Shown: positions 48,614-64,000 of the stretch, one piece after another
Layout: the number at the start of each line of letters is the position of its first letter
How positions within the stretch are numbered: position 1 is the stretch's first letter
DNA from: Candidatus Bathyarchaeota archaeon
Lineage (GTDB): Archaea > Thermoproteota > Bathyarchaeia > Bathyarchaeales > Bathycorpusculaceae
NCBI GenBank assembly: GCA_003151735.1
Contig: PLYI01000065.1
Coordinates: forward strand, 31,473-95,472
DNA length: 64,000 bases
Reading direction: 5' to 3'
Position numbers and translations under genes: made by a program
Notes under the pieces: generated by a model
Database searches by the model: none
Seen by the model: the letters and a program-made list of their open reading frames with translations, nothing else
What the model was told of the DNA's origin: nothing

Positions 48614-49468
48614 ATGGACAAAAAGCAACTTTCAATCGCCATCCCCGCATCCACAATCTCCGACACCCCCCACCTAAGGGAAAAAACAGCGAAGATAGGT
48701 TTGATTGGGCGGACCGCCGCTATTTTCAGAGTCAACGAAATCATAGTTTACCCAGATAACCCAAAAGTCGACCAGCGCAGAGACATGGATTTTATGGCTC
48801 TTTTGCTTAGTTACTTGGAGACGCCTCAGTACCTTCGGAAACAGTTGTTTAAGCTTGATCCTGATTTGGAGTTTGCTGGGATTCTGCCGCCGCTACGTAC
48901 GCCTCATCATCCTTTAAGCGGCAAAACTAAGCATCTGCAAATAGGCGAGTACCGTGAGGGCGTGGTTTTGTCTGAAGCTAAGGAGGGGTTGTTTGTGGAT
49001 ATTGGGGTTCAGCAGCCGGCGCTTTTGAGGCAAAAAGAATTCGCGGTGGGTAACCGTTTAACATTGCAGGTAGTTAATGTTGGTAAGAATATTGAAGTTC
49101 AGGCTGCAAATCGCGAAGATGTTCTAGTTTACTGGGGTTACAGGGTTCGAGTGGAAAAACGTTCTTTTGGGCAATTAGTGGCTGATGAAGGCTTTGATTT
49201 GAGGATTGCCACCGCCAGAGTAGGCGACTACTTTATGGATGTTGCTGAAAGGATAGGTGCGAAATGGGGAAGCAGCCAGCGGGTTTTGATGGCGTTTGGT
49301 GCTCCATCGCGCGGATTACACGAGATTACTGACGATGAAGGTTTAAAACTTGATGAAATCGTGGACTTCGTAGTAAACACGGTTCCAGGGCAAGGCACAG
49401 TGACTGTTCGAACCGAAGAAGCACTCTTAGCAACACTGGCAATCTTTAACGTGCATTTCAGTTACTAA
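48614..49468 (+). CDS. SPOUT-class RNA methyltransferase (Methyltrn_RNA_3 family)
   Basis: The 284-residue protein has an N-terminal SPOUT half (SIAIPASTISDTPHLREKTA, GRTAAIFRVNEIIVYPD), an inserted beta-barrel (HLQIGEYREGVVLSEAKEGL), and the C-terminal knot (LMAFGAPSRGLHEITDDEGL) that binds AdoMet. It belongs to the archaeal/eukaryotic COG2106 group, suspected to methylate rRNA uridine. AGAGGCAAATGC precedes the ATG. It is divergent from the isomerase gene. Confidence 0.9.
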   Translation: MDKKQLSIAIPASTISDTPHLREKTAKIGLIGRTAAIFRVNEIIVYPDNPKVDQRRDMDFMALLLSYLETPQYLRKQLFKLDPDLEFAGILPPLRTPHHPLSGKTKHLQIGEYREGVVLSEAKEGLFVDIGVQQPALLRQKEFAVGNRLTLQVVNVGKNIEVQAANREDVLVYWGYRVRVEKRSFGQLVADEGFDLRIATARVGDYFMDVAERIGAKWGSSQRVLMAFGAPSRGLHEITDDEGLKLDEIVDFVVNTVPGQGTVTVRTEEALLATLAIFNVHFSY

Positions 49469-50762: not shown

Positions 50763-51083
50763 TTACCCGAATAGGGCGCCTAATCCTTCTAGTGCTGCTT
50801 CTTCCTTGGCTTTTTCTTCTTCAGCTTTCTTCTTCTTGTCTTCTGGCGCGGCTGCTGCTGGTTTTGCTTCTCCTGCTGGAACTGCTATTGGCGCCGCTGC
50901 CATCATTGTCGGTGCGGCTTTAATTGCTTCATCAATGTTGACTTCGCTGAGTGACGCTACGAGTGCTTTAACCTGTATAGGGTCAACTGTGACTCCTGCT
51001 GCTGTGAGAACTTTTGTTACTGATTCTTCGTTTATTTCTTTTCCTGCCTTGTGAAGGAGCATTGCTGCGTAAATATTTTCCAT
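50763..51083 (-). CDS. rpl12: Ribosomal protein P1 (archaeal L12)
   Basis: The 106-residue protein is the archaeal P1/L12 stalk protein: helical N-terminus ([20 protein letters not shown]), Ala/Pro hinge ([16 protein letters not shown]), charged segment ([15 protein letters not shown]) and the acidic/hydrophobic tail LEGLGALFG that binds translation factors. The L1 and L10 genes normally cotranscribed with it are absent, so it is a detached copy. Confidence 0.95.
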
Positions 51084-51357: not shown

Positions 51358-52329
51358 ATGGGAAACATTACAGTAGCTATCCTCGGCGCCTTAGATTACG
51401 CAGGCAACCTTGCCAAAAAAGGAACCTCCACAGATATAACCCTCTACAACCTCAAAAAAGGCGAAGACACAGTAACCTTCATTGAACCCACACGTTACCC
51501 CGAACGGCTGGCGCCACTATTCTACGCTTGCGCGTTAGCGAAAAAAGCCATAATTGTCGTGGACGAGATAAACGCTACATTCGGCGAATGCCTTGTGATG
51601 CTTCAATGCAGCGACATCAAAAGCGGATATATAATCCTAAGAAACTACGTTCCAAAAGAGAAGATTGAAGGGCTCATAAAAGGGACAAGCCTAGAAAAAT
51701 TCAAGATCATACCAGATGACCCCAATGACCTGAGAGAAAAACTGCTGGTGGAAGCTTCTCAGCAAAAAACCGCGGAAATCCCAGTTGGACAGCAGCCGAT
51801 TGGAGCGGTTCCAGTTGATCATGCTTTCAGCGTTAAAGGCGTGGGAGTTGTGATTCTTGGCGTCGTTGTTTATGGAGTTGTTCAGAAACATGCAACGCTA
51901 AATGTTTTTCCCGCAGCCAAAACCGCGCAAGTCCGTTCTATCCAAAAACACGATGAGGAATTCGAAGTAGCAGGCGGAGGCGACCGGGTTGGATTGGCGC
52001 TAAAGAATGTGGAAGTAGAAGATTTAGACCGCGGAACTGTCCTGACAAACGACCCCGCAATCAAAACGGAAACTGCCATAAAAACTCAGGCATCGCTTGT
52101 TAAGTACTGGCAAACACCCATCAAACCAGGCATGGTCATGCATGTTGGTCACTGGACACAATTCATAACCGCAAAAGTGGAAACAGTCACAGACACCGCA
52201 GACCCGAAAAAACCTGCCCTAACCTTAACACTCGACAAACCGCTTGTCCATCGCCCAAACGACAAAGCAGTGCTGATGTACTTGGAAGGCGCAAAACTGC
52301 GCGTAGCAGGAACAATTGATCTTCCTTGA
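51358..52329 (+). CDS. EF-Tu/SelB-like protein with degenerate GTPase domain
   Basis: The 323-residue product contains the beta-barrel domains of the EF-1A/SelB family: DHAFSVKGVGVVILGVVVYG (domain 2), a KNVEVEDLDRGTVLTNDPA segment and a C-terminal barrel (HVGHWTQFITAKVETV). The N-terminal domain opens VAILGALDYAGNLAKKGTST where a working GTPase has GHVDHGKT. The P-loop lysine and most G motifs are absent, so GTP binding is unlikely. Related archaeal genes of unknown function exist. It is not a functional SelB as judged from the sequence. Confidence 0.7.
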   Translation: MGNITVAILGALDYAGNLAKKGTSTDITLYNLKKGEDTVTFIEPTRYPERLAPLFYACALAKKAIIVVDEINATFGECLVMLQCSDIKSGYIILRNYVPKEKIEGLIKGTSLEKFKIIPDDPNDLREKLLVEASQQKTAEIPVGQQPIGAVPVDHAFSVKGVGVVILGVVVYGVVQKHATLNVFPAAKTAQVRSIQKHDEEFEVAGGGDRVGLALKNVEVEDLDRGTVLTNDPAIKTETAIKTQASLVKYWQTPIKPGMVMHVGHWTQFITAKVETVTDTADPKKPALTLTLDKPLVHRPNDKAVLMYLEGAKLRVAGTIDLP

Positions 52330-62775: not shown

Positions 62776-64000
62776 ATGGCGCGTTATAGGCAAACCGACG
62801 AAATTGTAAAACTGATGGAAACCCCAATATACATACGCAACACCAGCATCATCGCCCATGTTGACCATGGAAAAACCACCCTGTCCGACAGCTTACTCGC
62901 AGCAGCAGGCATCATCAGCACACAAACCGCCGGACAAAAACTGTTCCTTGACTCATGGGATCTTGAGCAGAAACGTCAAATGACCGTTTTCGCCTCAAAC
63001 GTCAGCCTTGTCCATACCTATCAGGAAAAAGATTACTTAATCAACCTAATTGACACACCCGGCCACATCGACTTTTCAGGTGCTGTAACAAGAAGCTTAC
63101 GAGCCGTCGACGGCGCCCTTGTTGTAGTGGATGCCGTTGAAGGACCCATGACTCAAACAGAAACCGTTCTGATGCAGGCTCTACGCGAACGCGTAAAACC
63201 CATCCTGTTCATCAACAAAGTTGACCGATTAATCAAAGAAATCAAGCTAACACCACTTGAGATTCAAAAGAAATTTGCCAAGATTCTTCTACGAGTCAAC
63301 AACCTGATCGAGAAATATGCACCTGCTGAACACAAAAAAGATTGGCAAGTTACTGTTGAAGATGGCCGCGTGGCTTTCGGTTCAGCCTTACACAAGTGGG
63401 GTTTGAACATTGACCACATGAAAATGAAGAAAATATCCTTCCAAGATATCATCGATGCATACTCTGGTGACCCAATTGAGGTTGGCAGAAAAGTCGATGA
63501 ACTGAGCAAAAGAGCACCATTGCCCGAACCAGTCTTGGACATGTTCGTTAAGCATCTTCCAAATCCTTATGAGGCACAGCCCTACAGGCAGCCTCAAATT
63601 TGGCCAGGCGACGTGGCTAGCCCAACAGGTCAGGGAATGGCAAAAGTCGATGCTAAAGCACCATTACTGATGTGTATCTCCACCATTGAAGTTGACCCAC
63701 ACAGCGGAACAGTTGCTATCGGCAGAATCTTTAGCGGTTCAATCGAGAGAGGCAAAACAGTTCAGCTTGTAAGCAGCAGCCAAAAAGGCACCATTTCACA
63801 GGTCTTCATGAGTATGGCAACAGACCGAGTGCTCATCGATCATGTGCCAGCAGGCAACATCGGAGCCATCTCAGGCTTACCGTCCATTCACGTCGGCGAA
63901 ACCATCGCTGAAGACGGCCAAGAAGTCCACTCTTTCGAAGGCTTACGTTACGTTTCAGACCCGGTCGTAACCGTCGCGGTTGAACCAGAAGACGTCAAAG
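62776..64000 (+). CDS. fusA: Translation elongation factor 2 (partial, cut by window end)
   Basis: ATG 62776 opens a frame that runs past the end of the window (408 codons seen of about 730). It begins MARYRQTDEIVKLMETPIYI, then the P-loop IIAHVDHGKTTLSD, switch II INLIDTPGHIDFSGAVTR, and the NKVD motif FINKVDRLIKE. Domain II follows (TIEVDPHSGTVAIGRIFSGS). Archaeal EF-2 drives translocation on the ribosome. It is 27 kb from rps12-rps7. The ORF track omits it because it has no stop inside the window. Confidence 0.96.
   Translation, partial: MARYRQTDEIVKLMETPIYIRNTSIIAHVDHGKTTLSDSLLAAAGIISTQTAGQKLFLDSWDLEQKRQMTVFASNVSLVHTYQEKDYLINLIDTPGHIDFSGAVTRSLRAVDGALVVVDAVEGPMTQTETVLMQALRERVKPILFINKVDRLIKEIKLTPLEIQKKFAKILLRVNNLIEKYAPAEHKKDWQVTVEDGRVAFGSALHKWGLNIDHMKMKKISFQDIIDAYSGDPIEVGRKVDELSKRAPLPEPVLDMFVKHLPNPYEAQPYRQPQIWPGDVASPTGQGMAKVDAKAPLLMCISTIEVDPHSGTVAIGRIFSGSIERGKTVQLVSSSQKGTISQVFMSMATDRVLIDHVPAGNIGAISGLPSIHVGETIAEDGQEVHSFEGLRYVSDPVVTVAVEPEDVK

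Follow-up and report, generated by a model that had tools for sequence, protein, structure and literature searches.

A P-loop-less SelB paralogue in Bathyarchaeia: an aSelBL/aEF-X orthologue that may bind charged tRNA without a GTP cycle

How can a protein built like a translational GTPase be retained without the loop that holds the nucleotide? The question is raised by a short gene in the 64,000-nucleotide stretch of Candidatus Bathyarchaeota DNA analysed here (the window; Table 1). The first-pass annotation described a protein that keeps the EF-1A/SelB barrels and has lost the P-loop, with GALDYAGN in place of GHVDHGK, and this description holds in the alignment as well as in domain searches. 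The only Pfam domain above cut-off in this protein is GTP_EFTU_D2 (residues 163-230, E 5e-9), and the profile check of the N-terminal domain that the annotation had proposed returns no translational-GTPase G domain (GTP_EFTU, PF00009); when the whole genome was searched with PF00009, six other genes were found and this one was not. The NCBIfam SelB model covers residues 150-308 only (78.8 bits, cut-off 242), and the matches to the NCBIfam SelB and EF-1A models, which begin at about residue 130 or 145, both remain under cut-off. The chain stops at the last predicted strand of domain III, and a SelB-type domain IV or SECIS-related extension is absent, as judged from predicted strands and alignment.

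Table 1. Features of the aSelBL gene and its P1 neighbour in window coordinates
Feature	Position	Strand	Basis or remark
aSelBL/aEF-X gene	51358..52329	+	intact ORF, ATG to TGA, 323 aa
Degenerate G-like domain I, residues 1-146 (boundary approximate)	51358..51795	+	without PF00009 match; kept in predicted fold
Lost G1/P-loop site, residues 10-17, GALDYAGN	51385..51408	+	alignment with SelB, EF-1A, MM1309
Former switch I/switch II region, residues 18-60 (LAKKGTSTDITLYN ... IEPTRYPERL)	51409..51537	+	most conserved stretch in domain I
G4 region, residues 93-101, ILRNYVPKE, NKxD lost	51634..51660	+	alignment
Domain II beta barrel, residues 147-235	51796..52062	+	Pfam GTP_EFTU_D2
Domain II pocket residues D154, H155, F157, L167, Q196, R210, plus R225			
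Domain III barrel, residues 236-323, chain end	52063..52326	+	predicted strands up to residue 321; SelB alignment
Ribosomal stalk protein P1 (L12-like)	50763..51083	-	NCBIfam ribo_P1_arch 117.9 bits, cut-off 100

The closest relative in the PDB by sequence is Methanosarcina mazei MM1309, also called aEF-X or 'EF-Pyl' (3WNB, 3WNC, 3WND, 2ELF; PMC4329189), which was recovered by phmmer with the single sequence (3WNB/3WNC/3WND, E 1.3e-32) and with a 23-sequence family profile (E 1.3e-52) in a match that spans residues 6-307, the G-like domain included. The AlphaFold model of the window protein (mean pLDDT 90, pTM 0.88) has 3WNB as its top PDB match in Foldseek (E 6e-27, TM 0.85 over the query), followed by archaeal SelB; at 26% identity, the window protein and MM1309 share the three-domain fold, the pocket and the switch strand. 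Common ancestry, domains II and III and the pocket residues connect the protein to archaeal SelB (aSelB; 4AC9, Methanococcus maripaludis), and likeness in domain II, at 30% identity, to the EF-1A of its own genome (L002, G000:C3), which has all the G motifs. In a tree of 101 proteins, to be read with the caveats of a quick search and long outgroup branches, the window protein, aSelBL and MM1309 are set apart from intact SelB and EF-1A (SH-aLRT 97); the window protein falls among Bathyarchaeota, with Bathycorpusculum nearby and 88% identity to the nearest named relative, beside homologues of Methanothrix, Methanomicrobiales, Methanomassiliicoccales and Methanomethylicus type. The phylogeny with archaeal SelB-like genes that the annotation had called for thus places the protein with aSelBL and not with SelB. 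An ordinary SelB is also ruled out by the lack of G motifs and of the C-terminal domain and by the score under the SelB cut-off. Sequence, profile, tree and predicted fold together assign the window protein to aSelBL/aEF-X, an old paralogue of SelB, as a Bathyarchaeia (Bathycorpusculum-like) orthologue.

The damage can be located by aligning the family with MM1309, EF-1A and intact SelB. At G1, the window protein reads VAILGA-----LDYAGNLAKKGT, SelB VGLFGHVDHGKTML and MM1309 VAIIGTEKSGRTSLAANLGKKGT; GALDYAGN replaces GHVDHGKT, and five residues are deleted relative to MM1309, which keeps the loop GTEKSGRTS together with GTP binding. G2 is KKGTSTDIT, with KGTxx replacing RGITI, and G3 is IEPTRYP, with E/DPxxx replacing DxPGH and the catalytic His gone. 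At G4 the sequence is RNYVP, after which about eight residues of MM1309 have no equivalent, and the alignment shows no Asp of G4 and no G5 motif; the translational-GTPase signatures GxxxxGK[S/T] and NKxD both have no counterpart in the protein. Aligned with the domains of two intact archaeal SelBs, the switch I region is shortened relative to aSelB. GHVDHGK, the G3 His and NKxD, all present in the intact archaeal SelBs aligned, are absent from the window protein, as is the C-terminal domain of aSelB. Across 95 distinct aSelBL proteins from Bathyarchaeia and several methanogen groups, not one has GKT or GKS at residues 7-18, and KKGT is preceded by exactly 19 residues in 82 of the 84 rows that contain it, the other two being truncated rows that start within the domain; hence, the P-loop lesion is the shared state of the family in this branch and not a private loss. 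The absence of the P-loop is neither chance nor a sequencing slip. The annotation was right, then, about the missing loop, but its picture of a SelB losing the P-loop in this lineage gives way to membership in an old paralogous family with a common lesion.

The aSelBL family was described in 2011 by Atkinson, Hauryliuk and Tenson (PMC3037878), and was renamed aEF-X in the 2015 report of Yanagisawa et al. (PMC4329189). The 2011 abstract presents the GTPase domain as severely disrupted, with binding of aminoacyl-tRNA and the ribosome apparently kept, so that loss of the P-loop with retention of the tRNA-binding surfaces has been on record for this family since then; a superfamily review of 2015 describes the G domain as disrupted to varying degrees and the function as unknown. 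The window protein belongs to the P-loop-deleted, "divergent" branch of aSelBL. It displays the hallmarks set out by Atkinson et al., namely, the P-loop deletion, the KGT and E/DP replacements, loss of the G3 His, the deletion after G4 and the lack of a C-terminal extension, along with the conserved Asp-His...Arg pocket and the candidate aromatic lid of that branch. Its five-residue deletion in G1 is within the published 4-5, and the one after G4, about eight residues by comparison with MM1309, is below the published 10-14. The sole difference from the branch is the host lineage: Bathyarchaeia are missing from Table 1 of PMC3037878, and among the papers searched for aSelBL with Bathyarchaeota none was found to describe the family there. 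What the present analysis adds is the wide yet patchy presence of aSelBL in Bathyarchaeia and the lack of overlap there with SepCysS.

In the species collection, 473 candidate aSelBL stretches were confirmed by tblastn, the best 80 of which come from Bathyarchaeota (many of them Bathycorpusculum), Methanothrix/Methanosaeta, Methanomassiliicoccales, Methanoculleus and other Methanomicrobiales, and Methanomethylicus-type archaea. Counted from the match table, aSelBL is present in 54 of 251 genomes of the class Bathyarchaeia, including 28 of the 31 in the window's own genus, and most other genera among the 251 genomes have EF-1A-type matches only. This patchiness shows that the function is dispensable. 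SepCysS scores above cut-off in 27 of the 251 genomes and in none of the 54 that carry aSelBL, a null overlap between two sets that are each clustered by lineage and do not amount to independent events. The window's genome encodes an ordinary CysRS and an EF-1A; SelB was not found in it. Given the lack of overlap between SepCysS and aSelBL and the ordinary CysRS, the protein is unlikely to be linked here with the tRNA-dependent route to cysteine. The same genome contains a second CysRS-like gene (G000:C49:97730-98968; 317 bits, below the 340-bit cut-off), the frame of which reads through one TAG near the C-terminal end, with sequence beyond it that is not CysRS-like.

The altered G domain is not decaying. 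In domain I, comparison with the two relatives closest to the window protein, at 88 and 85% identity, gives dN/dS of 0.066/0.787 and 0.082/1.085, that is, about 0.08, dS being saturated in more distant pairs; in residues 18-60, which contain KGT, the candidate lid residue Y30 and E43-P, dN against the same two relatives is 0.021. Across 120 aligned rows of family loci, which are not all independent since the same genome may occur twice, the columns of domains I, II and III have a mean entropy of 1.28, 1.10 and 1.34 bits, respectively, as against 0.68 bits for residues 18-60. All three domains are under strong purifying selection, with domain I no less constrained than the two barrels. Within the same 120 rows, some of them duplicated, T23, Y30, E43, Y47, D154, H155, F157, L167, Q196, R210 and R225 are each at least 97% conserved. 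D191, H192 and R247 of the aSelB pocket align with D154, H155 and R210, and several others of these conserved residues with pocket positions of MM1309; taken together, the published aminoacyl-pocket residues map to T23, D154, H155, F157, L167 and R210. One tRNA contact is not kept: the equivalent of EF-Tu Lys90, which touches the 5'-phosphate and is K55 in MM1309, is A52 in the window protein.

The published lead on what such a protein does comes from MM1309. As reported by Yanagisawa et al., MM1309 protects Cys-tRNA(Cys) from hydrolysis (half-life 80 to 300 min); it binds GTP at 0.43 uM, with K11-S16 holding the phosphates and D103 the base; and its switch regions touch the other domains rather than the nucleotide (PMC4329189). 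Combined with the constraint observed here and the missing nucleotide site, these results make a constitutively closed, nucleotide-independent binder of aminoacyl-tRNA the most likely form of the window protein. We lean, if only modestly, towards the view that this aSelBL orthologue needs no GTP cycle to bind its charged tRNA, for which Cys-tRNA(Cys) is the most likely candidate. The 3' aminoacyl end would be held with no turnover of nucleotide; instead of sensing nucleotide, the strand that was once switch I (KKGTSTDITLYN) would form, with switch II (IEPTRYPERL), a rigid clamp between the domains and a lid over the pocket, and the complex might protect the labile ester or the thiol of Cys, or pass the tRNA to EF-1A or the ribosome. 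In favour of this reading are CysRS and EF-1A in a genome where SelB was not found, the near-invariant pocket and the constrained domain I; to be counted against it are A52 at the K55 position, a neighbourhood in which nothing points to Cys metabolism, and the patchy distribution in the class. In the published part of the case, moreover, Cys-tRNA binding was measured for a single 'conservative', GTP-binding member, MM1309, and not for a P-loop-deleted one, and the binding reported there concerns Cys-tRNA only, so that any specificity for Cys over other aminoacyl-tRNAs is tentative (PMC4329189). The more specific proposition that many anaerobic archaea have kept a P-loop-less carrier that, entirely without a nucleotide switch, takes charged tRNA (Cys-tRNA) to the ribosome or EF-1A strikes us as doubtful, albeit with a tangible chance of being correct. 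Should members like the window protein indeed bind aminoacyl-tRNA without nucleotide, they would offer a natural experiment on how much the GTPase switch contributes to carrying tRNA; the Bathyarchaeia proteins are useful in this respect for their clean lesion, their short length and the lack of overlap with SepCysS, which argues against a role in tRNA-dependent cysteine synthesis.

It is unlikely that the window protein is itself an alternative elongation factor that delivers aminoacyl-tRNA to the ribosome without GTP hydrolysis. Atkinson et al. find both patches of domain II that contact 16S to be conserved in aSelBL and suggest that ribosome binding is retained (PMC3037878), and the option is kept open in the discussion by Yanagisawa et al. 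(PMC4329189); however, with the G3 catalytic His and the P-loop gone there is no known means of release, and the genome has an intact EF-1A.

A scaffold or regulatory role was the proposal of the first-pass annotation, which leaned on the neighbouring gene for stalk protein P1. P1 does adjoin the aSelBL gene, though on the opposite strand, the two being divergently transcribed. Near aSelBL homologues, P1 is present only in close Bathyarchaeia relatives, divergent in the nearest kin and downstream on the same strand in others, and a direct P1 search across all loci recovered none beside the methanogen homologues (the neighbour analysis excluded nine methanogen-side loci without a matched target gene, which the direct search covered). 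No L10 or L1 gene was recognised among the scanned neighbours of the window P1. We treat the linkage as local synteny rather than functional evidence, and a functional operon with P1 is a weak candidate, given the other strand and the confinement to close relatives. At loci of Methanothrix type, the conserved neighbours appear, by eye and unscored, to be tryptophan-biosynthesis genes, which offer no functional clue. If the protein were an inactive mimic of a translational GTPase occupying a factor site in ribosome assembly or hibernation, it would resemble Tsr1, a eukaryotic factor of 40S maturation described as having EF-Tu/SelB-like architecture without the GTPase residues (PMC4895721), a precedent by functional analogy only; a pure scaffold, however, would have no need of the near-invariant aminoacyl pocket, and with the P1 linkage limited to one lineage we regard such a role as distinctly unlikely. 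From the annotation, accordingly, the loss of GTPase motifs, the retained aminoacyl-tRNA-binding barrels and the likely link to translation stand, in agreement with PMC3037878, whereas the scaffold or regulator beside the stalk protein yields to the published lead of aminoacyl-tRNA (Cys-tRNA) binding. Elsewhere in the neighbourhood, a putative RNA methyltransferase with an S1-like stretch (48614-49468, +; PF02598, 220 bits) belongs to a gene order common to several close Bathyarchaeia relatives.

Very improbable, in our estimate, is a hidden site at which nucleotide is still bound in a non-standard way: the GTP binding reported for MM1309, where the loop is altered but present, gives some reason to consider it (PMC4329189), and Atkinson et al. 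left open an unknown mechanism of hydrolysis (PMC3037878), but most of the MM1309 phosphate loop is deleted here, and the later base-binding motifs are missing too. A functionless, decaying SelB relic, to which lost motifs and patchy distribution might point, is already refuted by purifying selection on domain I, with uniform length across several archaeal phyla and the hundreds of confirmed stretches standing equally against it, and is vanishingly improbable. A pseudogene or sequencing error is ruled out by the intact ORF in dozens of genomes and by the same low dN/dS.

Several observations concern other translation genes. Close to its end, the window holds the start of an EF-2-like gene (62776-63999, +) that runs off the contig end, and another EF-2-sized GTPase (718 aa) is encoded on a different contig of the genome (G000:C13); these are either two EF-2 genes or the mark of a contaminating contig, the listed contamination of the genome being 5.36%. 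In three other Bathyarchaeia genomes (G114, G120, G174; genus code g3), aSelBL is found alongside a long SelB-type match, and thus coexists with a real SelB in some members of the class. In two of these, G114 and G120, we read a fusion of an N-terminal PSTK-like kinase with an intact archaeal SelB. Such single-frame fusions, of 706-771 aa (up to 790 aa), were seen at five loci (L043:1436-3664 (+), L044, L045, L046, L047) in Bathyarchaeia other than the window's genome, from three genera and two families, and no mention of them was found in the two selenium papers searched for such a fusion. The two fusions that were scanned match Pfam KTI12 (E ~1e-36) and NCBIfam selen_PSTK (156-184 bits, below the 290.5 cut-off), and their SelB parts score above cut-off at 262-283 bits.
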